Below are positions 39,641 to 58,222 of a stretch of 64,000 bases of DNA, piece after piece. The notes under the pieces were generated by a model. The model was given only the letters and a program-made list of their open reading frames with translations. It was not told where the DNA came from and ran no database searches. The position numbers and the translations under genes are program-made. Every line of letters begins with the position of its first letter. Positions within the stretch are counted from its first letter, which is position 1. Source of the DNA: Hyphomicrobiaceae bacterium (GTDB taxonomy: Bacteria; Pseudomonadota; Alphaproteobacteria; Rhizobiales; Hyphomicrobiaceae); contig JAEUMD010000013.1 of assembly GCA_016793635.1 (NCBI GenBank), positions 186,001 to 250,000 of the forward strand. Direction: 5' to 3'.

Positions 39641-40009
39641 TCAGGAATAAAGCGAGATCTCGGTGATCTTGCCGTCGAAGGCGATGCGGTCGAACGGCTT
39701 GAGAAGGCAGTCGTCGGCGCCGATCTTTTTCGCCCGGGCGATATCTTCGTTGTCGTTTTCGGTCGTCATGTAGATGATGAACGGGTGGCGGTTGGCTTCC
39801 ATCGCGCGCAGTGCGGAGATGGTTTCGAGCGGTGCCTTGCCCGGCATGTGCCAGTCGACGAGGATGAGATCGGGCATCGCCACTTCGCAGCGCATCAGCG
39901 CCTCGTCGCCGTTCTCGGCCTCGGTGACCATGAAACCGAGGCGTTCGAGAAATGCACGCGCCACGCGACGAATGACGTCGGAATCGTCCACCACCATGCA
40001 ATGCTTCAT
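39641..40009 (-). CDS. CheY-like single-domain response regulator
   Basis: A 122-residue receiver domain without output domain. It starts MKHCMVVDDSDVIRRVARAF; the phospho-accepting D52 is in LILVDWHMP and the conserved lysine in LLKPFD. It is encoded downstream of chpT on the same strand and has a perfect CtrA-type site 100 bases before its start. Receiver-only proteins in alphaproteobacteria act as phosphate sinks, chemotaxis regulators or adaptors in cell-cycle phosphorelays; which applies here cannot be told. A terminator follows. Confidence 0.9.
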   Translation of the reverse strand: MKHCMVVDDSDVIRRVARAFLERLGFMVTEAENGDEALMRCEVAMPDLILVDWHMPGKAPLETISALRAMEANRHPFIIYMTTENDNEDIARAKKIGADDCLLKPFDRIAFDGKITEISLYS

Positions 40010-40108
40010 AGGCACGGGCTCCGGAAATATGGATGGCCACGGCCGCTCGCCTCTGCCGCGCGGCAAGCGATCCGTGAGAGCAACATCCAATACATTGACC
40101 CGGGTTTG

Positions 40109-40124
40109 GTTAACTTGGCGTTAA
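40109..40124 (-). promoter_or_regulatory. CtrA-type binding site
   Basis: Read on the - strand, TTAACGCCAAGTTAAC is an exact match to the CtrA consensus TTAA-N7-TTAA, with both half-sites even in the full TTAAC form. It is centred about 107 bases before the start of the receiver gene and downstream of chpT, and so most likely controls the receiver gene. Confidence 0.8.
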
Positions 40125-40267
40125 ATAGCTCGGAATGGAGCAATTCACGCGTGCAATTTTCAATCCAGGCGTGTCCGCGTTCGATTAGGGATCGGTTGCC
40201 AAGGATGACGAGAGAGCGCAGTCGATCAAACGCGGTTCGCTTCCTTCTCAAACGATCGCGCCTCGAG

Positions 40268-40912
40268 TCAGCCGAACGGTTTGGCGGAGAGGAGAATATC
40301 GGCGCCGTCCTTGAGGATCTCGAGGCGCATGCCTGAAGTACCCGCGAGGCGCCACGTGTAGTAGGCCTGGACCGTCAGGGCATCGAGCGCCGGAGGCTTC
40401 TGGCCTGCGACGAACTCGGTCAGATACTGCGGCGGACGTGCGCCGACACCTCGGCAGCGGACGAGGAAGCTCGGAGCCTCAGTCGTGCCGCCCATGAGCA
40501 CGTCGATGTCGCCGCCCTTCGGCAGCGCTGTGATGGCGGCGGAGATGAGGTTCAGCAGCAGCTTGACCTTGTCCTTCGCCATGTGCCCGGCCAGTCCGCG
40601 CCAGTTCAACCGGTGCTTACCCTGGCCAATCAGCCCGTGCGAAATCTGCTCGGCGGTGCCGAGATCGATCAGTGCTCCGGCCGATCCGGCCGCGCCGAAC
40701 GCGAAGCGCGCGAATTGCAGGCGGGCTGAAGCCTGCTCGGTGACGTTGCGGATCACGTCGAGTGCGTAGCTCTTCGATTCCGCGTCGTTGTCCTGGTCGA
40801 AGATCTCGAGACCGTTGTAGATGGCACCGACGGGGCCGATCACGTCATGGCAAATCTTGCTCGAGATCAGTGCGGCGAGCTCGAGATCGGTCGGTTGTGC
40901 GATGCTGGTCAT
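40268..40912 (-). CDS. chpT: Histidine phosphotransferase ChpT
   Basis: Phosphotransferase of 214 residues that in Caulobacter passes phosphate from the kinase CckA to CtrA and CpdR. The four-helix dimerisation region has the motif SSKICHDVIGPVGAIYNGLE with H22, followed by a degenerate ATPase-like domain (AAITALPKGGDIDV). Start 40912 gives the family N-terminus; the longer frame is basic and low-complexity. It is beside a receiver protein with a CtrA-type site and divergent from eipA. Confidence 0.92.
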   Translation of the reverse strand: MTSIAQPTDLELAALISSKICHDVIGPVGAIYNGLEIFDQDNDAESKSYALDVIRNVTEQASARLQFARFAFGAAGSAGALIDLGTAEQISHGLIGQGKHRLNWRGLAGHMAKDKVKLLLNLISAAITALPKGGDIDVLMGGTTEAPSFLVRCRGVGARPPQYLTEFVAGQKPPALDALTVQAYYTWRLAGTSGMRLEILKDGADILLSAKPFG

Positions 40913-41367
40913 AATATGCCCCCAAGTGAGCGACGCGCCGGCGGGCCGCGGTCGCGCGGCTGGCGGTAGTCTCGACGCTCGTGTTGATCGCGGCTGCTCG
41001 AGCGCGAACGCGCTCACGCGAGCAGACAGGGGCCGCTGTAGTCCGGCTTGTCATTCGACAGATACATGCGGTTCGCCACGAAGCAAAGCCCCGCCGCCAC
41101 GATCGGACCGGATGATCAATGTGTTTCACAGGGCTTGGGGCGGGCGGGCAACAAACGGAGCTATCGCCCAGCACGAGCGAGGCCACACTTTGGCAATAGT
41201 TTCCGAGAAATCTGGCGATATAGAGCGCAGAGTTCGAAGGCACTGATTCGCGATCGCGCCCGGCTCACATGCTGTGCGCCAGGCGAGTTGGCCGTTGCCG
41301 CGTCTCCCTCCTGCGTGTGAACGAGGCGCTGGGCGGCGGGTCGCCGCCGTGTTCTAGGAATCGAGAG
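40913..41367. other. Divergent region between chpT and eipA
   Basis: 455 bases that should hold both promoters. I searched for a CtrA-type TTAA-N7-TTAA site because eipA is CtrA-controlled in relatives, and found no TTAA pair here. Nothing else was identified. Confidence 0.5.
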
Positions 41368-44138: not shown

Positions 44139-46943
44139 TTATTCGCCGAGTGCCGGTATCGCGGCAGCGGTTCGCGGCTTTTCGTCGGTCCCCAAGCCGG
44201 TGGTGCCCGATAGCGGTACGGTGAACGTGAACGTCGAGCCCGCGCTGCTCGTCGCCTCCACCCAAATGCGTCCGCCGAACTGCACGACGATACGCTCCGA
44301 AATGGCGAGGCCGAGGCCCGTGCCGGCCATGCCGAGCGGATTGGCATCGAGCTGGTTGTTGGCGCGCACCTGATAGAACTTGTCGAAGATCGCTTCGCGC
44401 TCGGCCTCCGGAATTCCGGGTCCGTTGTCGATGACGCTGAGGCGCGCCATGTCTCCATCGCGGCGCGCAACGATGGCAACCTTGCCGCCCGGCTTCGGGC
44501 AGAATTTCTCTGCGTTCGATACGAGATTGATGATGACCTGGATGAGCCGGTCGGCATCGGCGCGCACCGGGCCGAGCGAGTCGTCGATGCGTATTTCCAT
44601 CTCCACGCCGTCGCGCTCGAAGATGGGGGCAAGCGAGGCGGCTGCGTCGCGCACCACATGCTCCACTTCGACATCGCGGATGTGCCATTGCATGCGCCCG
44701 GCCTCGATCTTGGCGAGATCGAGAACCTGATTGATGAGGCGCGTCAGCCGCTCGCTTTCGGATACGATGATACCGAGGAAGGCGCTGCGCTGCTCCGCTG
44801 GCATGTCGGGGTCGTCCTGCAAGATCTCGGAGAACGAGCGGATCGAGGTCAGCGGCGTGCGCAGCTCGTGACTGACCGTGGACATGAACTCGTCTTTGAG
44901 GCGGTCGGCTTCGAGCAGTTGCCTGTTGGCGGCTTCAAGATTGCGGCTCGCGACTTCGAGTGCCTGCGATTTCTCCTCGAGCTGGCGCGAGTATTCCAGC
45001 ACGTGCTGCGTCTCGTCGAGGATCTGCATGATCTCGTCGAGCTGCACCCGCTCACCCTTGACGGCCGACGCAACAGCCACGCGCGCCGACGCGGCGCCGA
45101 TGCTGCCGGCGACGAGTCGCTCGGTGAGGCGCATGAGGCCGCTGTCCCACTCGGGCGGCTGTCCGGCGGCAAGGCCCTGGCGCTGGGCATAGGCGTTGAA
45201 CGCATCTGTTGCGCGGTCGCCGCCGACGTAGCGCGTGGCCAGCTCCAGCAAGGCCTGAACGCTGGCTCGCCCGTCGTCGCCCGAGAGCACGATGTCGCTG
45301 CCCGCCGCCGAGGTCTGCGCGCTGAACGCTTCGACGAACAGCGTCGCCTGTATGCGCTCGATGCGCGATTGGCGGTCCGTCATGGCGACGGCAAGGAAGC
45401 CACCGACGTTGAACATCATGCTCCAGAAGAGGGAGTGCGAGATGTTGTCGAGTCCTTCGAGGCCGAACAGCGCATAGGGCTTGAGCAGCGCGAGGCCGAA
45501 AAGGCCTTCCTTGATGAAGGAATCCGGCAGGAAGCCCGAGCGCGCGAAACTCGGCAGCAGCAACGTGTAAAGCCAGACGGTGAAACCGAGTGTCAGTCCA
45601 GTAATGACAGCGCGCCGCGTTCCGCCCCGCCAGTAAAGTGCGAACAGCAGGGCGGGCGCGAGTTGGGCCGCGGCACAGAATGATACGAGGCCGATGGTGA
45701 CGAGGTGATAGGTGTTGCCGACGACGGCGAGGTAGAAGTAGCCGAGCAGTAGAATGCCGACGATCGCGATCCGGCGGATGTTGAGCAGCAACGAGGTGAG
45801 GTCGCGGCTGCCCGTCAGGCGCGCACTGGAGAACCGCAGCAGCGCCGGCATGATGAGATCGTTGCAGACCATGGTTGAGAGCGCAATCGTCTCGACGATC
45901 ACCATCGCCGCCGCCGCGGAGAGTCCACCCACCAGAACCACCAGCGTCAGTGCCGCGTTGTGCTCGGCGAGCGGCAGCGCGAGCACATAGGTATCGGCAT
46001 CGATGTCTTTCGGCAGCCACATTACGCCGCCAAGCGCGATCGGAAGGACGAAGATGTTGATGATGAAGAGGTAGAGCGGGAATAGCCAAAGAGCGCGGTT
46101 GAGATGTGTCTCGTTGGTGTTCTCGACGAAGGTGACGTGGAACTGACGCGGCAGGCAGATGATGGCGGTCATCGACAGCAGTGTCAGCGTCACCCAGTTG
46201 CCGGCGGATTTCTCCATGCCGACGAGAGGGGCTGTGGTGGCGTTCGCCGCCGCCTTGGCGAAGAGATCGGCGAAGCCGTCGTAAAGCGCGAACGTGACGA
46301 ACGCACCGACGGCCAGGAACGCGATGAGCTTGACCAGCGATTCCGCTGCGATCGCGACGACGAGACCGGCATGGTGCTCGGTCGCCTCGATGTGGCGCGT
46401 GCCGAACAGCACCGTAAACACCGCGAGCACGAGTGTGACGATAAAGGCCATACTGTCAGCGGTGATCGCGGTGGCGAGCACGTCCTGGTCCTGGCGCAGT
46501 ACGACGCCGAAACTCATCGACACGGCTTTGAGCTGCAGGGCGATATAGGGCACGATGCCAACCACGGCGATGACCGTGACGAGGCTGCCAATCGCCTGGC
46601 TCTTGCCGTAACGCGAGCCGATGAAGTCGGCGATGGAGGTGATACGCTGGGCCTTGCAGATGCGCAGGATCTTGCGCAGCAAGAACCACCCGAGCGTGAA
46701 GACGATAGTCGGGCCGAGGTAGATCGGCAGGAAGCCGAAACCAGAGACGGCGGCGCGGCCGACGCTGCCGTAGTAAGTCCAGCTCGTGCAGTAGACCGCG
46801 ATGGATAGGGAATAGACATAGGGGTTGGAGACGAGGTGCGTGCCGGTGCCGTCGCGCGCCTTGCGGTCGCCGTAGTAGGCGAGGGCAAACAGCGCCATGA
46901 GGTAGCCGAGCGACGTAAGGAGTATGATGGAGCTCGACAGCAT
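44139..46943 (-). CDS. CrbS-like symporter-histidine kinase
   Basis: A 934-residue fusion of a sodium/solute symporter-like domain (12-13 helices, residues 1-520), a linker resembling the STAC component (about 530-640), a coiled coil and a histidine kinase. The phospho-acceptor is H692 in MSTVSHELRTPLTS; ATPase motifs are NLVSNAEKF, DNGPGIPEAE and GTGLGLAISE. Proteins of this build (CrbS, CbrA-like) sense or bind carboxylates such as acetate and control their use. It is the last gene of an operon with a receiver protein and a small membrane protein. Start 46943 has GGAG 10 bases upstream. Confidence 0.92.
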   Translation of the reverse strand: MLSSSIILLTSLGYLMALFALAYYGDRKARDGTGTHLVSNPYVYSLSIAVYCTSWTYYGSVGRAAVSGFGFLPIYLGPTIVFTLGWFLLRKILRICKAQRITSIADFIGSRYGKSQAIGSLVTVIAVVGIVPYIALQLKAVSMSFGVVLRQDQDVLATAITADSMAFIVTLVLAVFTVLFGTRHIEATEHHAGLVVAIAAESLVKLIAFLAVGAFVTFALYDGFADLFAKAAANATTAPLVGMEKSAGNWVTLTLLSMTAIICLPRQFHVTFVENTNETHLNRALWLFPLYLFIINIFVLPIALGGVMWLPKDIDADTYVLALPLAEHNAALTLVVLVGGLSAAAAMVIVETIALSTMVCNDLIMPALLRFSSARLTGSRDLTSLLLNIRRIAIVGILLLGYFYLAVVGNTYHLVTIGLVSFCAAAQLAPALLFALYWRGGTRRAVITGLTLGFTVWLYTLLLPSFARSGFLPDSFIKEGLFGLALLKPYALFGLEGLDNISHSLFWSMMFNVGGFLAVAMTDRQSRIERIQATLFVEAFSAQTSAAGSDIVLSGDDGRASVQALLELATRYVGGDRATDAFNAYAQRQGLAAGQPPEWDSGLMRLTERLVAGSIGAASARVAVASAVKGERVQLDEIMQILDETQHVLEYSRQLEEKSQALEVASRNLEAANRQLLEADRLKDEFMSTVSHELRTPLTSIRSFSEILQDDPDMPAEQRSAFLGIIVSESERLTRLINQVLDLAKIEAGRMQWHIRDVEVEHVVRDAAASLAPIFERDGVEMEIRIDDSLGPVRADADRLIQVIINLVSNAEKFCPKPGGKVAIVARRDGDMARLSVIDNGPGIPEAEREAIFDKFYQVRANNQLDANPLGMAGTGLGLAISERIVVQFGGRIWVEATSSAGSTFTFTVPLSGTTGLGTDEKPRTAAAIPALGE

Positions 46944-47326: not shown

Positions 47327-47737
47327 TCAACCAGCGGCGCGCTCCTTACCGAGCATCTCTTTGACGCGGGCGGCGAGTGCCCGGGTCGAAAAAGGCTTCG
47401 TTTCGTAACCATCGGCTCCGAGCGCCAGCCCCTTCTCGATCTCCACCTCCCGCCCCTTCGCCGTCAGCATCAGAATACGGACGCCCTTGAAGCGGTCGTC
47501 GGCGCGGATGGCCTGGCAGACCTCATAGCCGTTGCGCTTCGGAATATTGATGTCGAGGAGGACCAGGTCGGGTGGGCTCGCCTCGACGGCGGCCAGGGCC
47601 TCTTCTCCGTCGCGAGCGAGTCGGACCTGATAGCCGGCCTGCTTCATCAGGTATTGCAGAGACAACATGATATTCGGCTCGTCATCCACAACGAGCACGG
47701 ATTTCGCGGCGGCATTTTCCGCGGGTGCGAGGGTCAT
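47327..47737 (-). CDS. Receiver-only response regulator
   Basis: A 136-residue CheY-like protein: SVLVVDDEPNIMLSLQYL, D62 in LVLLDINIPKRNG, and the lysine in YETKPFS. It has no DNA-binding domain. It is the first gene of the CrbS-like kinase operon and its obvious partner. In systems with CrbR the partner regulator has a LuxR-type output; the lack of one here means the signal must leave by another route. Start 47737 has GGAAGGA upstream. Confidence 0.9.
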   Translation of the reverse strand: MTLAPAENAAAKSVLVVDDEPNIMLSLQYLMKQAGYQVRLARDGEEALAAVEASPPDLVLLDINIPKRNGYEVCQAIRADDRFKGVRILMLTAKGREVEIEKGLALGADGYETKPFSTRALAARVKEMLGKERAAG

Positions 47738-48246: not shown

Positions 48247-48501
48247 ATGCAACCAGTCAATTACGAGAGGCATTGGTCACGGACCAGTGCGCTCATGTGG
48301 ATCATGTTGATCCTGTGGGCGATATTTAGCTTCTTCATCCACATGTTCGTGGACACCCTCAACTCGATCGTGATTCTCGGGTTCCCGCTCGGCTTCTACA
48401 TGGCCGCGCAGGGTTCGTTGCTTGCCTTCGTGATCATGTTGTTCATCTTCGCCAAGCGGCAGGACACCATTGATCGCCAAGAAGGCGTGGCCGAGGAGTG
48501 A
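48247..48501 (+). CDS. DUF4212 symporter small subunit
   Basis: An 84-residue membrane protein with two helices (WIMLILWAIFSFFIHMFV and GSLLAFVIMLFIFAKRQD). DUF4212 proteins precede VC_2705-type cation/solute symporters and are thought to be their small subunit. GGGAGGAAGG precedes the ATG. The symporter gene starts 10 bases after its stop. Confidence 0.9.
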   Translation: MQPVNYERHWSRTSALMWIMLILWAIFSFFIHMFVDTLNSIVILGFPLGFYMAAQGSLLAFVIMLFIFAKRQDTIDRQEGVAEE

Positions 48502-48511
48502 GGGGCTGACC

Positions 48512-50518
48512 ATGGCAAAAGAATATACGGTCGGAGGCGGCAGCTTCCTCAATAACCTGGGTAAGATCTACATGATCTACACGGGTGGTTTCTTCGGTTT
48601 CGTCGCGCTGCTCGCCGTACTCGAGCAACTCGGCATGCCGAACCGCTGGATCGGTTACGGCTTCGTGTTCCTGACGATCGCCGTCTACGCCTTGATCGGC
48701 GTCCTCTCGCGCACGTCGGAAGTCGGTGAGTACTACGTTGCTGGCCGCTCGGTGCCTGCCTTCTACAACGGCATGGCCACGGGCGCCGACTGGATGTCGG
48801 GTGCTTCGTTCGTCGGCATGGCCGGCACGCTCTTCCTGCTCGGCTACGACGGCCTCGCCTTCGTGCTCGGCTGGACCGGCGGCTACGTGCTGGTTGCGGT
48901 GCTCATCGCGCCGTTCCTGCGCAAGTTCGGCGCCTATACGGTTCCGGACTTCTTCGCCGAACGTTACGGCGGCTCGTTCGCCCGCCTTCTGGCGGTCATC
49001 GTGCTGATCTCGTGCTCGTTCACCTACGTGACGGCGCAGATCTACGCCACGGGCATCATCGCCTCGCGCTTCCTCGACATCGACTTCACGGTCGCCGTTT
49101 ACGTCGGCCTGCTGGGCATTCTGCTCTGCTCGATGCTCGGCGGCATGAAGGCGGTCACCTGGACGCAGGTCGCCCAGTACATCGTGCTGATCGTCGCCTA
49201 CCTCCTGCCGGTGGTCATTCTCTCGGCCAAGAAGTACGGCATCCCGATCCCGCAGCTCACCTACGGTCAGGCGATCCAGGACATTGGCAACCTCGAGCAG
49301 AACATGCTCGCCAAGGGCCTCGCCGATGCCAAGACGCTGAAGCCGCACATCAAGCCGTTCACCACCTACGATCCGCTCAACTTCTTCGCGCTGATCTTCT
49401 GCTTGATGGTCGGTACCGCTTCGCTGCCGCACATCCTGATGCGCTACTTCACCACCCCGTCGGTGCGTGAGGCTCGTTCGTCGGTTGCGTGGTCGCTGTT
49501 GTTCATCTTCCTGCTGTACTTCACCGCCCCGGCCTATGCCGCGTTCTCGAAGCTCGAGGTTTACTCGACCGTCGTTGGCCGCGAGCTGGACCTGCTGCGT
49601 CCGTGGATCTTCACCTACGGTAAGCTCGGTCTCGTGAAGGTCTGCGGCGCCGATGCGATCAGCCACGAAGCCGTCAAGGCGGCTTGCGCCAAGATCGCTC
49701 AGCACCCGGGCGTCGTCCGGCTGCAGGATCTTTCCATCAACACCGACGTGATCGTGCTCTCGACTCCCGAGATCGCGGGCATGCCCTACGTCATCGCCGG
49801 CCTTGTCGCCGCCGGTGGTCTCGCCGCCGCTCTTTCGACGGCCGACGGCCTCCTGCTCGCCATCGCCAACGCGCTGTCGCACGACATCTACTACAAGATG
49901 ATCAGCCCGAACGCTTCGACGAAGACCCGTCTCATCGTCGCGCGTATCCTGCTGCTCGTCGTCGCCGTCATCGCCGCATATACAGCATCGACCAAGCCCG
50001 CCGACATCTTGTCGATGGTCGCCTGGGCGTTCTCGCTGGCGGCAGCCGGTATCTTCCCGGCTCTTGCACTCGGCGTGTGGTGGAAGCGCGCGAACACGCC
50101 GGGCGCCGTGCTCGGCATGATCCTCGGCTTCGGTGTCACGCTCTACTACCTCGTCGGCACGCGCTACTTCGCCGTGTCGTTCTACGAGATGTGGAGCTTC
50201 CTCGCGACCGCGAAGCCCGAGGCAGTCGCCAAGTTCGCCGAGCTCAAGGCCGCGTTTGCGGCGGCGGCTCCGGAGGGCAAGGCTGCCGCCTGGACCGCGC
50301 TCGACAAGCACGCTCAGGGCATTGCGAGCTGGTATGGCGTGAAGAACATCTCGGCCGCCCTGTTCGGTCTGCCGGTTGGCTTCCTGACCATCATCCTGGT
50401 CTCGCTGATGACGCCTGCGCCGTCGCGCAAGGTCCAGGACATGGTCGACGCCACGCGTCGTCCGTCCGGTGAGCTCATCATGTCGGAGAAAGGCTCTGGC
50501 ATGGTCGGCGGTCACTAA
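48512..50518 (+). CDS. Cation/acetate-type symporter, VC_2705 family
   Basis: Sodium/solute symporter family carrier of 668 residues with about 13-14 helices. It contains EYYVAGRSVPAFYNGMATGA and DWMSGASFVGMAG, typical of ActP-like carboxylate carriers, plus the long inserted loop between helices 9 and 10 and near residues 560-610 that distinguish the VC_2705 subfamily. The ATG at 48512 follows the DUF4212 gene. It likely imports acetate or a related short carboxylate; the exact substrate is not shown. A good terminator follows. Confidence 0.92.
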   Translation: MAKEYTVGGGSFLNNLGKIYMIYTGGFFGFVALLAVLEQLGMPNRWIGYGFVFLTIAVYALIGVLSRTSEVGEYYVAGRSVPAFYNGMATGADWMSGASFVGMAGTLFLLGYDGLAFVLGWTGGYVLVAVLIAPFLRKFGAYTVPDFFAERYGGSFARLLAVIVLISCSFTYVTAQIYATGIIASRFLDIDFTVAVYVGLLGILLCSMLGGMKAVTWTQVAQYIVLIVAYLLPVVILSAKKYGIPIPQLTYGQAIQDIGNLEQNMLAKGLADAKTLKPHIKPFTTYDPLNFFALIFCLMVGTASLPHILMRYFTTPSVREARSSVAWSLLFIFLLYFTAPAYAAFSKLEVYSTVVGRELDLLRPWIFTYGKLGLVKVCGADAISHEAVKAACAKIAQHPGVVRLQDLSINTDVIVLSTPEIAGMPYVIAGLVAAGGLAAALSTADGLLLAIANALSHDIYYKMISPNASTKTRLIVARILLLVVAVIAAYTASTKPADILSMVAWAFSLAAAGIFPALALGVWWKRANTPGAVLGMILGFGVTLYYLVGTRYFAVSFYEMWSFLATAKPEAVAKFAELKAAFAAAAPEGKAAAWTALDKHAQGIASWYGVKNISAALFGLPVGFLTIILVSLMTPAPSRKVQDMVDATRRPSGELIMSEKGSGMVGGH

Positions 50519-50575: not shown

Positions 50576-50681
50576 GCTGTGATACCCGCCTCTCAGGCAC
50601 AAACCGCGCCCTGGATTTCCATTGCCGTCGACACTCCGTCGCGGCGGCCGGGAGTTCGCCAGGAACCGCCGAGGATACGCC

Positions 50682-50993
50682 GTGAATCCGACCGAGAGCT
50701 TTGCCACCTACTGGTGGTTCCATATCCCGAACTTGCTGATGGCGGCGATGATCTACACCCTGATCGGCCGTTACCTGCTGGAGCTGTTCTTCTCCAAGAA
50801 GCAGGACGCCGTGATTCTGAAGGTGTTCCGCACGGTCACCGATCCGGTCGTCAAACTCGTCCGTCTCGTAACGCCGGCCGTCATTCCCAACGGCCTCGTC
50901 GTCGTCGCGTCCGTGATGTGGCTGATGGCGGCGCGGATGTTTTGGTTTCTTACCGCCGTTACCTACGGCATGCGCCTGACGACGGGAGCCTGA
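50682..50993 (+). CDS. YggT-like membrane protein
   Basis: A 103-residue protein with two hydrophobic segments (LLMAAMIYTLIGRYLLELF and GLVVVASVMWLMAARMF) around the YggT-like stretch VFRTVTDPVVKLVRLVTPAV. YggT proteins are small integral membrane proteins of uncertain role. GTG at 50682 has GAGG 7 bases upstream. The next gene starts 5 bases after its stop. Confidence 0.7.
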   Translation: MNPTESFATYWWFHIPNLLMAAMIYTLIGRYLLELFFSKKQDAVILKVFRTVTDPVVKLVRLVTPAVIPNGLVVVASVMWLMAARMFWFLTAVTYGMRLTTGA

Positions 50994-50998
50994 GCGCC

Positions 50999-51343
50999 AT
51001 GAACGATATGGATAAACGCCAGGAGATGATGCAGCGCGACGTGACGCTGACGGCGATCGCGGGCCTCAGCCTCGTCAATGGGATGCACTTTTCTCCTTGG
51101 TTCGATCCGGTTGCGGTGCTGCTGCGGCCCTTCCTCGCCGGCACCCTGCTGGGATCGCCGCTCGTCTCGCTCTACATCACGTCGTTCTTTCTCTCGGTGA
51201 TGACGCTGCTCGTCGCCGGTGTCCCCGCCGCGCTCTACGAGAGGTTGCGGGGCGATGGCAAGACCTCGCCAACATCACTCTACATCTGGCTCGTTGCCAT
51301 GATCCTGCTGACGATGCATGCGTTGCTCGCCTGGGTCGGCTGA
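50999..51343 (+). CDS. Hypothetical membrane protein
   Basis: A 114-residue protein with three predicted helices. It contains GMHFSPWFDPVAVLLRPFLAG and ends in ILLTMHALLAWVG (shown in part). No family recognised. It is coupled to the YggT-like gene (5-base gap). A second in-frame ATG at 51008 is possible. Confidence 0.7.
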   Translation: MNDMDKRQEMMQRDVTLTAIAGLSLVNGMHFSPWFDPVAVLLRPFLAGTLLGSPLVSLYITSFFLSVMTLLVAGVPAALYERLRGDGKTSPTSLYIWLVAMILLTMHALLAWVG

Positions 51344-51541
51344 GACTTCTCCGGCGGGTCGCTTGAGGCAAGCTTGGGGCGCCCGCCGCTCCGTTGAAGT
51401 GCGGCCGCCGGTCGGGCCCCGCCATCTGCAACCCCATCTGCAACCAAGGCAGCGGCTTGCGCGTTCGAGCCATTCGGGAGATCATTTCCCCCGCGGGAGG
51501 ATTTAACGCCCGTGTAAGAAGATTGGCCGGGCGGGGTTTCC

Positions 51542-51916
51542 ATGCTTGAGCGGATCGAAATCATGGCGACGCACTCGGTTGCTCGTGGGTGCGGCTTTGC
51601 GATGATCGCAATCGGCACGACGATGATCGGCCTTGTTTACGACCCCGTGCAATCGCTGCAGATCGGCGGCATTCTGTCTCTGCTGACGACGCTGGTACTG
51701 CTCGGCAAAGCGATCAACGCGCCGCGCAAGGACTACCGTGATACCGAGCTCTGGCTGTTGCTGTTGCCGAGCGAGCGGCCGGCCCAGACCATCGCGCAGA
51801 GTGTCCTCTCCCGCATTCTTCGCGGCGTGTATCTCAATTTCGCGTACTATTTCGCCAATGGAAGTTGCGTGCTGATCGTTCTGTCGGTCGTGCTCGCCGT
51901 GTTCGGCGCCTCATAG
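51542..51916 (+). CDS. Hypothetical membrane protein
   Basis: A 124-residue protein with about three hydrophobic segments (GFAMIAIGTTMIGLVY, IGGILSLLTTLVLLG, CVLIVLSVVLAVFG) and a cytoplasmic loop containing APRKDYRDTELW. No family recognised. Its last six bases overlap the 3' end of the convergent DUF294 gene, so no terminator separates them. Confidence 0.68.
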   Translation: MLERIEIMATHSVARGCGFAMIAIGTTMIGLVYDPVQSLQIGGILSLLTTLVLLGKAINAPRKDYRDTELWLLLLPSERPAQTIAQSVLSRILRGVYLNFAYYFANGSCVLIVLSVVLAVFGAS

Positions 51917-53368
51917 GCCGAGGCGCGACGGCAGATCGGCACGGAACGTCTCGATCTCGCGCAATGCTCGCCGCAGGCGGGTCTTGTCGCGACCGGACAA
52001 TGCTTCATGCACCACGTAATCGGTGACCGGGCGGCCGGCGCGCGCATCGGCGACCTGCTGTGACAGGATCATTCCGGCGATCGCGCGGAAGCAATCGATC
52101 AGCGTCTCGGCTTCGTCCTTGTCGAGTTTCCCATTTTCGGCAAGCGCTTTGAGGCGAGCCGTCGTGGATGTCGCGGGTATGCGTGCGCGAACGGAGAGAA
52201 GCCGCGCACCCTCGACCAGCGGTAAGGTGCCGCGCATCTTGAGATTGATGACACCCGGCTCCTCGCTTTCGCTCACTTCGCGCTTCAGAAGACCGAGCCA
52301 ATTGAGTGCGACGCCGTGATCCTCCTCGATGCGGTAGAGATCCCGCACGAACTGAGGCGTCGCCGTCATGGCATCGAGCATATGCCGTCGCAACGCGACT
52401 GTGAGCCGTTCGGCGCCGGCGACGTGGGCAACGTCCAGCAACACATCGCTGTTGAGCAGGTGCAGGGGCTGGCGGCGTTGCGCCCACACGTCGATCTGCT
52501 GGCGCCATTCGGTGATCGGCTTGCGCCACACCGGATTGGTCGCCATCACGTTGCCCTTGCACAGCGCGAAGCCGATCGTGTCGAGCGCCGCGGTGAGCCG
52601 CTCGGCGAGCGAGATGAAGTAGCTTTCGACCGCGGGGCGTTGGGCTTCAACATGGTCGGCGAGGATCAAACCGTTGTCCTGATCCGGAAGCAGGAGGTTC
52701 TCGCGCCGTCCGCCCGACCCCATCACGACGAGGGCGAACTCGACGGGCGGTGCGCCCCAGCCGTCGGCGGCAAGATCCTCGACGACGATCGCCAGCGCAC
52801 GCCTGTGCAGCTCGCCGTTGACGTCGCTTAGGAGTTCGAGGATCTGCTCCTCGGGCGTACCGGCCGCGAGCAGGTCAGCGGTCACGTCGGGCAGTTTCGC
52901 GAACGCGCGCCGCAGCCCTTCGATGCTGTCGTCGGCGGCCAGCATCGCGGCGAGCGGGAACGCCGGTGTCGCGCCCGACTTCAGGATCTGGCAGAGCGAT
53001 ACGATGCCGAGGAAGCGGCCACTTCGATCGGTTACGGGAAGTGCCGAAACGCGCGCGCGTTCGAGCAGGACGACGGCATCGAGCAGACTGTCGTCAGCGT
53101 CCAGAGGTGCGCGCCGCTCAGGCAGGAGCGCGGCGATGCGATCGCTGGGCTTGATGCCCTTGGCCAGCCAGTCGAGCACGTCGCTCGGCGAGAAGGCTCC
53201 AACCAACTGGCCCTCGATGTTGAGCACGACCAACGGGGCTCGGCCGTTACGCGCGGCGTCCCATGCGTCTTGCAGCGTCGCCTCCTCGCTGAGCGTCGCC
53301 GCCGGGGCGGTGAGGCTATCGCGAATGCGGGCTTCGAAGAGCCGTGTCGGTTCCGGCATCGAGGGCAC
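51911..53368 (-). CDS. CBS/DUF294 nucleotidyltransferase-like protein
   Basis: A 485-residue cytoplasmic protein. Two CBS domains (about 15-75 and 80-132) are followed by a DUF294 nucleotidyltransferase domain with intact motifs GSGGRRE (from G217) and DQDN (229-232), similar to the GlnD uridylyltransferase active site, and a C-terminal DUF294 helical domain. CBS pairs often bind AMP, ATP or related nucleotides. Such proteins are commonly encoded beside VC_2705-type symporters, as here. The reaction is unknown. Start 53368; 53359 is an alternative. Confidence 0.85.
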   Translation of the reverse strand: MPSMPEPTRLFEARIRDSLTAPAATLSEEATLQDAWDAARNGRAPLVVLNIEGQLVGAFSPSDVLDWLAKGIKPSDRIAALLPERRAPLDADDSLLDAVVLLERARVSALPVTDRSGRFLGIVSLCQILKSGATPAFPLAAMLAADDSIEGLRRAFAKLPDVTADLLAAGTPEEQILELLSDVNGELHRRALAIVVEDLAADGWGAPPVEFALVVMGSGGRRENLLLPDQDNGLILADHVEAQRPAVESYFISLAERLTAALDTIGFALCKGNVMATNPVWRKPITEWRQQIDVWAQRRQPLHLLNSDVLLDVAHVAGAERLTVALRRHMLDAMTATPQFVRDLYRIEEDHGVALNWLGLLKREVSESEEPGVINLKMRGTLPLVEGARLLSVRARIPATSTTARLKALAENGKLDKDEAETLIDCFRAIAGMILSQQVADARAGRPVTDYVVHEALSGRDKTRLRRALREIETFRADLPSRLGL

Positions 53369-53444: not shown

Positions 53445-55577
53445 TCAGAACTTGTCGCCGAGCCTGCGTTCCTTGAGCATACGGTCAGAAATCGTCACGG
53501 CCTCGCCGAATGTCTTGATCCCGCGCGCTTCCATCACGTCGAGCAGTCTGATCCACAACGCTGCCGTCGCCAAGGCATCACCGACCGCGGTGTGGCGCCC
53601 GGAGATGTCGATGCCGAGGAAGTCGGCGACGCCGTTGAGTGAATGATCGGGTAGCTCGGGGTGCAGGTAGATGGAGAGCAGCAGCGCATCGAGAACGGGA
53701 TTGTCGAACACGACACCCGCCTCGTCCTGCTTCATGGTCAGGAATTTCATATCGAAGGAGATGTTGTAGGCGACGAGAACCGCGTCGCCGACGAAGCGGC
53801 GGAACTGCGGCAGCACGATGCGAGCTGGCGGCTTGCCCTTGACCATATCCGCCGTGATGCCGTGGATGCGTGTCGAAACCTCGGGAATGTCGCGGCCCGG
53901 ATCGATCATCCGCTCGAACGTCTCGCTGGTGAGGAGCCGGCCATTGACGACCTGCACCGCGCCGATCGACAGAAGCTCGTCGCCGTCAGTCGGGCGAAGG
54001 CCGGTCGTCTCGGTGTCGAACACGCAGTAGCGCAAGGCTCTCAGCGGAGTAGCGGCGATGTTGCCGTGCGCCGCTTTGAAGAGATCGAAGTCATAGTACT
54101 CGGGGCGCGGCGCGAGGGCTGCGGACTTGGGTTCGGGCTCGGGGTTCTCGGCGGGGCGCAGAGGCAGGCGCAGCATGGCGATACCATCGCCCGCCATGGT
54201 GCTCCACACCTCGCCGCCGTGGCGTTCGATGATCTGGCGCGGCGTGCGGCTGGCGATGGCGCCCGCGAGCGATTCGTCCAGCCAGGACTCGAGCACGTCC
54301 GCGTTGATCGGCGCGCCCGGCCAGGAAATCTCGACGTATGCATAGGAATCGCCGCGCGTGACGCCCGCGTCGAAACTCTTGAGGCCGGTCTCTTCGGCGA
54401 GCCGCCGCACGAGGTACTCGAGGGCCAGCATCAACGCGTGGCTATCGGCGCGCAACCAGACCGGCAGGCCGACCGGTGTGACAGTGATGCCATGCGACTG
54501 GCCCACATGCTTCTGCACGGCGCGGAAAAGATCGAGCGAGCGTACGTCCGTCATCGCCCAAGGGCCGACATCGAGGCGGTCGTAGCGCTTGGAGGCATCG
54601 ACGAAGCGCGCGTTGATCTGGGTGAGTTCCTTGGAGACGATGTCCTCGAAGGCGGCGCGTTCGGGCGGGGAAAGCGCCGCGCCATCGGTCAGCATTTCGA
54701 CCGCGGCGGTGAGGTTGGCGAGCGGGCGGCGCCATTCGACCATCACTTCGCGCAGAAGCGTATCTCGCGCTGCGAGGCTCTCGATTTCGCTGCCAATGTC
54801 CTGGAACGACAGCACGTAGCCCGATAGTTCGCCGGCTTGATCGACGACGAGACGCATGCGCGTCTCGACCAGGGTGCCGAGATCGACGGTCGAGGCCATG
54901 AAGCGGCGGATCGCGGTGCCTTCGTCGGCCGGAACGGCCTTGCCGTCGGCTTCGCCGCTGCCGCGCTGCGTCGGGCGGCGCGCGAGCGTATCGAGCGCAT
55001 GCAGCACAGGCTCCCGCGTCAGAACCCCGAACAGCGGTCGGCCGAGGCCGGTCATCTCGCGCAGGCCGAGAATGCGTTGAGCCGCCTCGTTGTAGAGAAT
55101 GATGCGATGATCGCGATTGCAGACGATGACGCCCTCGGTGAGGTCGAGGAGGATGGTTTCGAGCTGGCTGCGTTGCTGGTCCGCGGCGCGCGTCGCGGTC
55201 GCGACGGCATCGCCGATCTCGCTTTTCGATCGATGGAGCGCGCGGGCGAGGCCGCCGATACTCGTCGCCAGCCCCTCCACGAACTGCGAGCGGGGGACGA
55301 TCGGATCTCGGTCCTGCGGAGTGAGCGCCAAGGCCCGTGCCTCACGCGCCAATCCGGCGAGTGGCGCAACAAGGTACAGAGAGAAGAGGCCCCAGGCGGT
55401 AAGGAACGCCAGCAGCGTCACGCCGAAGCCGATGGAGATGAAGGCATTGGCACCCGCGGATTGCTCCGCGGCGGCGGTCGCCGTCTGCATCAGCGATTTC
55501 ACCACCACGACGGGCAGAACGAAGCCCGGCAAAGCAACGATGAGCAGCAGGACAGGTACGACGACGCGAAGGGGCAT
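53445..55577 (-). CDS. Membrane PAS / kinase-like / DEDDh exonuclease fusion
   Basis: A 710-residue protein: two membrane helices (5-28 and 46-72), a HAMP-like linker, a PAS domain (about 136-262), a kinase-like dimerisation region and ATPase remnant (270-475), then a DnaQ-type 3'-5' exonuclease (512-690). The kinase histidine is replaced: MVEWRRPL has V280 where active kinases have His. The exonuclease is intact: D521 and E523 (FDTETTG), D609 (YNISFD), H662 and D667 (RHTAVGD). It lies between two DUF294 genes on the same strand, within the carboxylate-symporter region. Function unknown. Confidence 0.88.
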   Translation of the reverse strand: MPLRVVVPVLLLIVALPGFVLPVVVVKSLMQTATAAAEQSAGANAFISIGFGVTLLAFLTAWGLFSLYLVAPLAGLAREARALALTPQDRDPIVPRSQFVEGLATSIGGLARALHRSKSEIGDAVATATRAADQQRSQLETILLDLTEGVIVCNRDHRIILYNEAAQRILGLREMTGLGRPLFGVLTREPVLHALDTLARRPTQRGSGEADGKAVPADEGTAIRRFMASTVDLGTLVETRMRLVVDQAGELSGYVLSFQDIGSEIESLAARDTLLREVMVEWRRPLANLTAAVEMLTDGAALSPPERAAFEDIVSKELTQINARFVDASKRYDRLDVGPWAMTDVRSLDLFRAVQKHVGQSHGITVTPVGLPVWLRADSHALMLALEYLVRRLAEETGLKSFDAGVTRGDSYAYVEISWPGAPINADVLESWLDESLAGAIASRTPRQIIERHGGEVWSTMAGDGIAMLRLPLRPAENPEPEPKSAALAPRPEYYDFDLFKAAHGNIAATPLRALRYCVFDTETTGLRPTDGDELLSIGAVQVVNGRLLTSETFERMIDPGRDIPEVSTRIHGITADMVKGKPPARIVLPQFRRFVGDAVLVAYNISFDMKFLTMKQDEAGVVFDNPVLDALLLSIYLHPELPDHSLNGVADFLGIDISGRHTAVGDALATAALWIRLLDVMEARGIKTFGEAVTISDRMLKERRLGDKF

Positions 55578-55909: not shown

Positions 55910-57994
55910 TCAGAGACGCCCCTCCGAGACGAGATCGATGGCGGTGCGAACCTGATTGATCGCCTTCTTGAGGGCCGAGCGTCGGTCGCCGTCGAGGCGG
56001 GCGATCTCGACGCGTGGCGATAGCGCGATACCACTTTCGGCATCGATGAGCTGCTGCTCGAGCATGACGCCGAGGATCGTCTTGTGAGCATCTACGATCG
56101 CAGCGATGTCGTTGGCCGATCCGACTCCCTTGGCACTCACCGCCAGGAACCGGCCGGGCGTCGAGCGCTCGCGGATGAGATGCTTGATCGCCAGTACGCG
56201 CCCGACCGTGAACATCGGCATCAGGCCGAACTTCTTGAGGTCGAGGCGGCCGCTCTCCTCCGTCCGGAAGCCGCCGATCAGCGTGAAGGGTGCCGACCAC
56301 TTGCGCGCGTTCTCGGTCAGCAGAGACTGGAAGTCCGGTGCCGTGTTGCCGATCTTGAGCGCGTAGTCGCGGATCTCCTCGCCGAGCGCCTTCTCGCCGT
56401 GCACGGGGATGCTGTCGAAGAAGATATCAACGTTGAGCAGATCCTCCGGCCGCTGGCGGCGAATCCAGCCGTTGATGAGTTGATGCCAGCCGTCGACGCT
56501 GTGGCGCCACGCGGCGTTCTTCGCCATCACGCCACCCTTGCAGAGCGGGATGCCGGCTTCATCGAGATACTTCGCGAGCCGCGAGCCGAGCTCCTCGAAC
56601 CAGCGGTCCTCGCTACCGCCCGGCTCACCCTTCTCGAAGACGATGGCGTTGTCCTGGTCGGCGGCGAGCAGACTTTCGCCGCGGCCGGCGGAGCCCATCA
56701 CCAGCACACAGAATGGAACCGGCGGCGTGCCCCAGCCATCGGCCGCCATGCTCGCTTCGGCCAACTCGGCCGCGCGCCGCGTCGCCGCACACAGCTCCGC
56801 GCTGATGACGTTGGCAATTCGCCGCGGCTCGATGTCCTCGTTGAACAGCGAGCGCGACACACGCGTCAGCCGGCCCCAGGCGGCCCCGAGTTCGGCTGAG
56901 CTGTCGGCGGCGTCGATGTCCTCACCGAGGACCAGCGCCGCGGTGGCGCGCTGGTGCAGCAGGTCGCGCGGAGTGACCGCGCCGATGATTTCGCCGGAGG
57001 CGCTTTTGACCGCGAGGTGGCGGATCTTGAGCTTCTCGATACGGGCGATGGCGCGATAGAGGAACGCATCCTGATCGACCGTGGCGAGCGGCTTCGACAT
57101 GATCGATGCGACGGTCAGATCGAGTGCTTCGGCGCCGCGCTCATTCATCGCCTTCAGCAAGTCGCGCTCGGTGACGATGCCGGTCTCGCCGATGCCGTTG
57201 GTCGCGAACAGCGAGCTGATCCGCTTTTCGAGCATCATCGCCATGGCTTCGCGCAGCGTGGCCTCGCCGCGGATGAAGCTCGGGGTCGTCATGACCTCGG
57301 AAACGGAGTGGCTGTAGGGGTAGCTGTCGAGCTGGGCGATGCGGTGCGTGTCGGCGAACTGGGGTACGGCGGAGATCGCGTCTCCGAGATCGTGAGACAT
57401 CATTTCGCGGCAGGCGGCGGCGGCCTCGGCGAGTGTCCTGATCTCCTTCTCGCGCAGTCGTGGCACGAGGGATTCGAATATGCGTGCTGTTGCCATGGCG
57501 GTCGCTCCAGCGGATTGCAGGTCGGAGCATGGCAGCTCCAGCCACCTGCAGTAGTCGGGGAGACCATCGCTCGAGAGCGGCGGCGCCACGAGCCGGGCTA
57601 GCCGCTTCACGTCGATGGCGATGAAGCCCGGCCATGGCCTCTCGAGCCGCTGATACTCGGACCGCAAGACGCCGATGTCGTAGGCGACGTTGTGTCCGAT
57701 CAGCAGGTTCTTGCCGACATAGGCCTCGAATGCGCCGAGAACTTTCTCGAGCGAACTCAAGGTGTCGCGCTTGAGGCGCCCGAGGCCGTTGAACTCGGCC
57801 TCTTCGGGCAGCGGCGTTTCCCCGGGCACCGCAAGACGATACGACTGCGCGTTGGGCACGAGCTTGCCGGTCTTGATGCGGGCCAATCCGATGCGTGTGA
57901 TGCGGGCGCTGGTGGCGTCGCCCTCCGTGGTGTTGAGATCGAAGGCAACGCCGTCGAGAGCGATAAGCGGTGTGGCAGCGAGCGGTGCCGGCAT
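55910..57994 (-). CDS. Pseudo-exonuclease / CBS / DUF294 protein
   Basis: A 694-residue protein: an N-terminal exonuclease-like fold (10-180), two CBS domains (about 232-290 and 298-350), and a DUF294 nucleotidyltransferase domain with intact GSAGRGE (from G434) and DQDN (446-449). The N-terminal fold has lost catalytic residues: the ExoI glutamate is N21 (FDLNTT), and the ExoIII His and Asp are Q160 and T165; D19 and D106 remain. It is therefore probably a binding domain. Start 57994 has GAGGAGG upstream. Same strand as the PAS-exonuclease fusion and the other DUF294 gene. Confidence 0.87.
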   Translation of the reverse strand: MPAPLAATPLIALDGVAFDLNTTEGDATSARITRIGLARIKTGKLVPNAQSYRLAVPGETPLPEEAEFNGLGRLKRDTLSSLEKVLGAFEAYVGKNLLIGHNVAYDIGVLRSEYQRLERPWPGFIAIDVKRLARLVAPPLSSDGLPDYCRWLELPCSDLQSAGATAMATARIFESLVPRLREKEIRTLAEAAAACREMMSHDLGDAISAVPQFADTHRIAQLDSYPYSHSVSEVMTTPSFIRGEATLREAMAMMLEKRISSLFATNGIGETGIVTERDLLKAMNERGAEALDLTVASIMSKPLATVDQDAFLYRAIARIEKLKIRHLAVKSASGEIIGAVTPRDLLHQRATAALVLGEDIDAADSSAELGAAWGRLTRVSRSLFNEDIEPRRIANVISAELCAATRRAAELAEASMAADGWGTPPVPFCVLVMGSAGRGESLLAADQDNAIVFEKGEPGGSEDRWFEELGSRLAKYLDEAGIPLCKGGVMAKNAAWRHSVDGWHQLINGWIRRQRPEDLLNVDIFFDSIPVHGEKALGEEIRDYALKIGNTAPDFQSLLTENARKWSAPFTLIGGFRTEESGRLDLKKFGLMPMFTVGRVLAIKHLIRERSTPGRFLAVSAKGVGSANDIAAIVDAHKTILGVMLEQQLIDAESGIALSPRVEIARLDGDRRSALKKAINQVRTAIDLVSEGRL

Positions 57995-58222
57995 GTTTGC
58001 CTCCTCGATGTCGATAGAATGGAAAGGCGCTGATCCGCGCCATTGCTCCTTGATGGGCGTCAAAGTCACGCGTGCGGCGCAGCAATTTTTTCTTAGGATG
58101 GGGCGTGGACAACGCGAGACGGGGCGGCGCAGCCTGTCATGATGCCGCACCCGTCGCAAGCCGCGCCGGCTCGGTCGCAGAGTCGTTTGCAGGGAGTTTG
58201 CTACCGGGCTCGCCGCCGTGTC

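Follow-up and report, generated by a model that had tools for sequence, protein, structure and literature searches.

Two-component systems usually deliver their output through a kinase that acts on a DNA-binding regulator. Kinase-like modules can also work without classical phosphotransfer, as in NifL, which combines PAS and a kinase-like module, acts on NifA and binds adenine nucleotides. In Caulobacter, DivL carries PAS and a histidine kinase module without the phospho-accepting histidine, and reads the stand-alone receiver DivK through the DHp helix, including the arginine three residues beyond the histidine site (H+3). This arginine (R553, three residues past the tyrosine at the histidine site) is required for DivK~P binding, replacement of the tyrosine by histidine does not reduce the binding, and DivL feeds another phosphorelay (PMC4211667). 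The SLC5/STAC kinases CrbS and RpuS join an SLC5 domain to HisKA and HATPase domains and are described with LuxR-type partner regulators (PMC9100948, PMC5715377). The stand-alone exonuclease/CBS-protein pair of Pseudomonas is also already known: under MxtR/ErdR (CrbS/R) of P. putida, the RNase_T-family putative exonuclease PP_0353 shares an operon with the CBS-domain protein PP_0354 and is tied to acetate/pyruvate uptake genes and the SLC5 kinase system, and PP_0353 is reported to be important for growth on pyruvate but not on acetate under the authors' conditions (PMC9927547).

We analyzed a 64,000-nucleotide stretch of DNA from a Hyphomicrobiaceae bacterium (GenBank assembly GCA_016793635.1, contig JAEUMD010000013.1, positions 186,001 to 250,000 of the forward strand), hereafter the window. 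One of its genes (53445..55577, minus strand, ATG start) encodes a 710-residue membrane-anchored protein composed of a PAS domain, a pseudo-histidine kinase and a DEDDh exonuclease. The initial annotation had proposed that PAS and kinase-like domains are joined here to a DEDDh exonuclease, on which Pfam, the AlphaFold2 model and Foldseek agree. The membrane anchor that it assumed corresponds to two N-terminal hydrophobic helices (aa 1–85, 55323..55577), seen in both the model and the sequence, with a short connecting loop and no large periplasmic domain. The PAS domain (aa 138–262, 54792..55166) is recognized by Pfam and in the model. It is followed by a DHp-like hairpin without the histidine (aa 262–333, 54579..54794; R283 is the H+3 residue) and a CA-like domain (aa 340–475, 54153..54560), which contains W458 and from which the N-box asparagine, the G1 aspartate and most of the G2 motif are missing. 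The conserved linker motif RPEYYDFDLF (aa 491–500, 54078..54107) precedes the exonuclease domain (aa 516–706, 53460..54032), whose complete catalytic set is supported by Pfam, the alignment, the model and Foldseek. All of these features lie on the minus strand.

Pfam matched the PAS fold to residues 138–261 (E 8e-8) and RNase_T to residues 519–674 (E 2e-31); a HisKA match to residues 281–317 fell under the Pfam cut-off (E 0.011). NCBIfam returned DnaQ/PolC-type exonuclease models and, weakly, the WalK and NblS kinase models. The AlphaFold2 model (pLDDT 79, pTM 0.45) begins with helices 3–34 and 37–85, a signal helix and the PAS domain, and continues with the DHp-like hairpin (262–297/304–333), the CA-like domain (343–473), a low-confidence linker and the exonuclease fold (516–706). 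Because of the pTM of 0.45, the packing of the domains is uncertain. With Foldseek, the middle of the model resembled WalK/VicK-type kinases, ThkA and NifL (PDB 9qq6), and the C-terminus resembled DnaQ epsilon (2gui, rmsd 1.9) and the PolC exonuclease. Unlike NifL, the family to which the window protein belongs has no nucleotide motifs. A family profile built from the window protein and 55 relatives matched VicK-like 4i5s (E 1e-20), ThkA 3a0r (E 4e-9) and DivL 4q20 (E 1e-5) over the PAS-DHp-CA region, and exonucleases, namely PolC 2p1j (E 1e-46) and DnaQ epsilon, at the C-terminus. The RPEYYDFDLF motif is among the best-conserved stretches of the family, and model confidence is low directly ahead of it (residues 479–494); the motif may serve for docking.

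The alignment of 132 pseudokinase modules with 61 SLC5 kinases taken from the loci retrieved showed the H-box histidine in 61/61 kinases vs 0/132 modules. The initial annotation had noted valine in place of this histidine, and V280 of the window protein indeed occupies the H-box position; glutamate or aspartate stands there in 93/132 modules. The histidine is also absent from all 143 aligned family members (8 gapped at the site), from a 100-row alignment, and from the 19 members with a residue at that site among 30 loci read later (9 on plasmids and 21 retrieved by searching the class). We sought homologs with intact kinase motifs and found none among the 143 members or these 19. The Mg-binding N-box asparagine is gone in 129/132 modules and kept in 3, with arginine or lysine in 105/132 (R392 in the window protein). 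The adenine-binding G1 aspartate is missing from all 132, with tryptophan instead in 127, and the GTGL of the G2 motif is gapped in at least 131. In contrast to a sensor histidine kinase, the window protein therefore has neither the H-box histidine nor the N, G1 and G2 boxes for Mg-ATP. Other positions are retained: the H+3 arginine in 128/132 modules (119/120 among members with an adjacent receiver gene) and the DHp helix-2 glutamate at 317 in 129/132. The alignment indicates that kinase residues are exchanged for other conserved residues rather than lost at random, and a new function of the module is probable because several of the replacements reach the degree of conservation expected of catalytic residues.

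We considered three simpler readings of these losses and rejected them. An active kinase using a shifted histidine finds no support, since the commonest nearby histidine (H-4) is present in 45/100 rows and missing from the window protein. Decay confined to one genome disagrees with the loss of kinase residues throughout the 143-row alignment. An assembly or gene-fusion artefact disagrees with the full-length relatives (32–52% identity), which occur across many genera and also on plasmids from named isolates.

As for the exonuclease domain, D521, E523, D609, H662 and D667 sit where the initial annotation had placed them. The first three are invariant in 143/143 members and the other two are found in 142/143, the exception being a single gapped row; the full set is present in 30/30 later members, and in the 100-row alignment the residues likewise vary only by gaps. 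With this catalytic set and fold, the window protein belongs to the DEDDh (DnaQ/RNase_T) exonucleases, and the nearest DEDDh folds are DnaQ epsilon, the PolC exonuclease, DinG and ExoX. From the observed catalytic set, the domain would be expected to remove 3' nucleotides. Since the histidine was never found while the DEDDh set was kept, the earlier proposal that the output is exonucleolytic rather than phosphotransfer stands as a well-supported interpretation. It had overlooked the likely input, namely a receiver and an SLC5 kinase, and a DUF294 partner.

The window's genome has one full-length copy. Relatives were found in 53/398 genomes of a phylum sample (E 1e-30), 24/385 of a class sample (E 1e-38) and 23/297 of an order sample (E 1e-60), counting the window's genome and short kinase-less forms. 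The best 80 of 490 confirmed stretches in a genome collection, assigned to classes from their record titles, are mostly from Betaproteobacteria, with some from Alphaproteobacteria and Chloroflexota. One contig labeled Actinomycetota (L046) carries an exonuclease that groups with Chloroflexota and sits among Betaproteobacteria, perhaps through a binning error or transfer. Two loci (L159 and L160) encode short PAS-exonuclease forms of 483 residues, in the same order and without the kinase-like part.

The surroundings of the gene in the window form a cassette. Searching the window's genome with neighbors from other loci revealed, across the symporter from the exonuclease gene, an SLC5-fused histidine kinase (44139..46943, minus strand) and a stand-alone receiver of about 137 residues without an output domain (REC; 47327..47737, minus strand). 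The kinase retains SHELRTPL as well as intact HisKA and HATPase domains, the only domains, HATPase_c and HisKA, that Pfam reported for it (E 0.01), and it shares with CrbS-type systems the fusion of an SLC5 domain to an intact kinase. The receiver lies beside it, about 5.7 kb from the exonuclease gene. On the plus strand follow a small protein (48247..48501; 83 bits with an in-house profile) resembling those that precede symporters in related loci, and a sodium/solute symporter of the VC_2705 family (48470..50518; TIGR03648, E 6e-210), which also resembles the acetate symporter ActP, though in weaker matches. The small protein may be of the DUF4212 type. The label of a carboxylate-transport locus, derived solely from the symporter family, is putative. 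Three small plus-strand ORFs between the symporter and the DUF294 gene (50622–51916) gave no Pfam match above cut-off. The minus strand continues with a 485-residue CBS-DUF294 nucleotidyltransferase (51911..53368), whose GSGGRRENLLLPDQDN motif is intact by Pfam and a motif check, and, beyond the exonuclease gene, with a degenerate DEDDh domain fused to CBS-DUF294 (55910..58159; ORF of 749 residues, start uncertain). Elsewhere in the window (39641–41017), a small receiver gene adjoins another ORF, presumably encoding a ChpT-type phosphotransfer protein.

Elsewhere, a common order is small protein, symporter, DUF294, SLC5 kinase, REC and pseudokinase-exonuclease, sometimes with AcsA. Among 66 loci of at least 15 kb, an adjacent REC was found in 56, DUF294 in 55, the symporter in 50 and the SLC5 kinase in 46. 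The same gene row appears in the deposited annotation of named isolates such as Paracoccus aminovorans and P. denitrificans PD1222, the latter with DUF294 (PDEN_RS25395), SLC5 kinase (RS25405), REC (RS25410) and pseudokinase-exonuclease (RS25415) in one row. The cassette was also considered as a defense system and rejected, PADLOC yielding only DEDDh, PDC-S48 and receiver-region matches.

Upstream genes were counted for 143 exonuclease genes with at least 450 nt of upstream sequence (4/147 with less were left out). An REC was called adjacent when on the same strand, within about 0.6 kb and above 60 bits, and a module was called clear at a score of at least 80 bits. The REC lies directly upstream in 119/131 members with a clear module vs 1/12 with a lower score; the latter is L178, whose module is barely detectable (26 bits). 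The exonuclease gene overlaps 54/114 adjacent RECs by 4 nt, and the phospho-accepting column holds aspartate in 121/121 RECs. The family thus shares with DivL the lost histidine, the retained H+3 arginine and a stand-alone receiver gene, which in the window belongs to the cassette without being adjacent. Natural fusions of REC to exonuclease or of kinase to REC were absent from the loci scanned. Used as a yes/no test for REC along the tree, the module score was uninformative, with 2 supported independent pairs.

The 12 clear-module members without an adjacent REC, the window protein among them, were followed individually. In three Accumulibacter-type genomes, whose module is normal, the REC is paired with the SLC5 kinase elsewhere in the genome. 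In four Rhodoferax-type genomes, the SLC5 kinase was not found at 1e-60; an REC search at 1e-25 was negative in three of them, and in the fourth it turned up only a longer frame matching at 43%. These absences may reflect incompleteness, since three of the four genomes are metagenome-assembled. In three genomes of family f21 and in genome G534, the best REC matches (6e-23 to 3e-25) lie in frames of 239–318 residues, and a search for a full-length SLC5 kinase of this type was negative. E-values alone would permit a divergent REC in f21, f31 and G534, because the adjacent REC of family f41 itself scores only 5e-21; among the matches listed for f21, f31 and G534, none lies in a frame shorter than 200 residues. 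REC-bearing members match 0.82 of the conserved DHp columns and the Accumulibacter type 0.73, compared with 0.60, 0.20 and 0.33 in the REC-less lineages. All nine of the examined f60-family genomes in which a full module is missing contain a 44–47% identical SLC5 kinase with an adjoining receiver match (in a frame shorter than 190 residues in six of the nine), so that such RECs exist without the pseudokinase. This pair may be a second system, because genome G643 has the module with its own REC in addition to an f60-like kinase-receiver pair. Conversely, f41 and f44 have REC and pseudokinase with no close SLC5 kinase, and the upstream kinase is therefore not fixed. The link between REC and pseudokinase looks tighter than the link to the SLC5 kinase, and the kinase feeding the REC may vary between lineages.

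A single residue of the CA-like domain follows the receiver closely. We scanned the 95 columns conserved to at least 90% in 123 REC-bearing members (L178, left out, would also have had Trp458), and W458 was the only one to have disappeared from each of the four lineages with a CA domain but no adjacent REC. Trp458 is present in 124/124 members credited with an REC vs 0/19 others (12 with a different residue, 7 without this part of the protein), and it thereby matches REC status in 143/143 rows; for the window protein and three Accumulibacter-type rows, the credit refers to an REC elsewhere in the cassette or genome. The number of independent losses is small: five of five supported independent pairs agree (p 0.0625), or four of four without f60 (p 0.125). 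The combination of Asn/Ser at H+8 with the H+3 arginine was tried as an alternative REC marker and set aside as weaker, with 116/123 REC-bearing rows fitting and 7 failing; it is missing from 10/10 REC-less rows (f60 rows left out).

Because Trp458 had been chosen from the data, the 30 further loci were read under the fixed rule for adjacency. Trp458 was present in 13 REC-adjacent rows, and valine in one, a Cupriavidus plasmid locus (L222). L195 and L202 combine a clear module and Trp458 with no adjacent REC under this rule, and L216 and L204 have a tryptophan aligned at 458 with no module detected. Closer inspection placed an REC with an SLC5 kinase about 5 kb from the gene in L195, a weakly scoring adjacent REC (44 bits) in L202 and an annotated response regulator next to the gene in L216, giving Trp458 in 16/17 REC-bearing later members. 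No REC was found in L214 (module of 60 bits) or L221 (43 bits), where position 458 holds alanine and glutamate, respectively. L217 is ambiguous, with no REC, no tryptophan and no module by score, and the tryptophan aligned in L204 and in the uncounted L205 falls in sequence without a detected module.

The association with DUF294 is broader. DUF294 (E 1e-15) occurs in 53/53 exonuclease-bearing genomes of the phylum sample, against a background of 145/398, and in 23/23 of the order sample, against 101/297. The hypergeometric probabilities are 3e-26 (phylum, two fusions left out) and 3e-12 (order), calculated with ancestry ignored on overlapping samples; the matching of genome lists and the count of 101 were done by eye. 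At 1e-3, the order search gave some DUF294 match in 234/297 genomes; the weak matches in frames near 1000 residues are taken to be GlnD. The DUF294 motif is complete in 113/116 cases, the three misses being short fragments, and the nucleotidyltransferase adjacent to the exonuclease gene in the window has it intact. DUF294 remains near the exonuclease gene in f60 and Rhodoferax-type loci without module and REC, and L169, L170 and L184 carry an intact DEDDh domain fused to CBS-DUF294. The 749-residue window protein is a fusion of the same type with a dead exonuclease part, in which the catalytic glutamate, histidine and last aspartate are replaced; this dead exonuclease adjoins the live-looking one. 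The window's genome holds two further symporter/DUF294/exonuclease modules (L188 on contig 19 and L189 on contig 4) with DEDDh residues intact by eye, L189 lying beside a CrbS-like hybrid SLC5 kinase and acetyl-CoA synthetase. Since DUF294 stays with the exonuclease where the REC is gone, and in view of the fusions, exonuclease plus nucleotidyltransferase is the most constant core, onto which pseudokinase and REC look like an added input.

Our preferred reading, to which we give slightly less than an even chance on the strength of gene order, the H+3 arginine and Trp458, is that the exonuclease is switched by the pseudokinase, which would read the REC in the way that DivL reads DivK~P. The SLC5 kinase would sense or transport a carboxylate and phosphorylate the stand-alone REC, which, probably as REC~P, would dock on the DHp/CA-like module. 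Being unable to autophosphorylate, the module would act as an input. The resulting change, joined by the PAS input, would pass via the linker to the DEDDh domain, which would remove 3' nucleotides, and this nuclease output would work with the neighboring DUF294 nucleotidyltransferase, whose association is observed, to adjust carboxylate uptake and use. The complete chain, from transporter-kinase through REC and pseudokinase to a DEDDh eraser opposing DUF294, in which cycles of nucleotidylation and its reversal would govern carboxylate uptake, is unlikely in its entirety.

The same genes admit other explanations, which differ in what they ask of the module and of the nuclease. If the module were itself a small-molecule sensor and the REC a mere operon neighbor acting elsewhere, one would understand why W374, D378, W432 and H453 of the CA domain are still conserved in REC-less Rhodoferax-type and f21 members, and these residues give the module some use without REC; yet loss of the adjacent or genomic REC accompanies loss of W458 in each supported independent pair, and a poorer DHp match (0.20–0.60 vs 0.82), which leaves this explanation rather improbable. 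Still harder to believe is a kinase that has simply decayed, joined to a house-keeping DnaQ-like exonuclease and without a signaling role: the kinase motifs are indeed missing, but the residues that took their place are conserved in Alpha- and Betaproteobacteria and in Chloroflexota, and the operon structure is kept.

For the nuclease, the presence of DUF294 in every exonuclease-bearing genome of two samples suggests that it may undo a nucleotidyl transfer. DUF294, a putative nucleotidyltransferase with a GlnD-like motif, would modify a protein or an RNA 3' end with a nucleotide that the DEDDh domain would take off again, and this would set the activity of the symporter or a regulator. Such a cycle is compatible with the receiver-input model, and agrees with the intact DEDDh-CBS-DUF294 fusions, with the persistence of DUF294 after module and REC loss, with its nearly always complete motif and with the two additional modules in the window's genome. 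We nevertheless regard it as a fairly doubtful possibility: in P. putida, growth on pyruvate was slowed by deleting PP_0353 but not PP_0354, so that the two are not a simple pair there (PMC9927547). That the membrane exonuclease is a selective RNase, trimming or degrading certain mRNAs or small RNAs involved in carboxylate metabolism, is a possibility of comparable standing. The authors of the P. putida study suggested mRNA decay for PP_0353 (PMC9927547), and the DEDDh fold is nearest to DnaQ epsilon, PolC exonuclease, DinG and ExoX; on the other hand, the closest structural matches are DNA exonucleases, the sequence names no RNA target, and the DUF294 link would be left unexplained.

The locus resembles each of the described systems in part, with DivL as a precedent for the mechanism and PP_0353 as one for the physiology. 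As in DivL, PAS and a histidine-less module accompany a stand-alone receiver, but DivL has tyrosine at the histidine site; in the window family, nucleotide motifs are missing from the CA domain, a fused nuclease provides the output and receiver binding is presumed. Like PP_0353/PP_0354, it pairs an RNase_T-family protein with a CBS-domain protein near an SLC5 kinase system, but the description in PMC9927547, in the part compared, mentions no PAS or pseudokinase portion of PP_0353, and the regulator there is LuxR-type rather than a stand-alone receiver. The window kinase has the SLC5-HisKA/HATPase arrangement of CrbS and RpuS in a carboxylate locus, and an output-less receiver where their described partners are LuxR-type (PMC9100948, PMC5715377). 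A literature search, covering the top-ranked matches for broad queries with subscription journals mostly outside it, returned no description of the PAS-pseudokinase-exonuclease or its REC.

DivL already shows that a kinase module can become the reader of a receiver. If our preferred reading is true, a widespread family in which such a module drives a nuclease would add a type of output to two-component signaling, and the biochemistry of DUF294 would become directly testable, for example in Paracoccus denitrificans PD1222.
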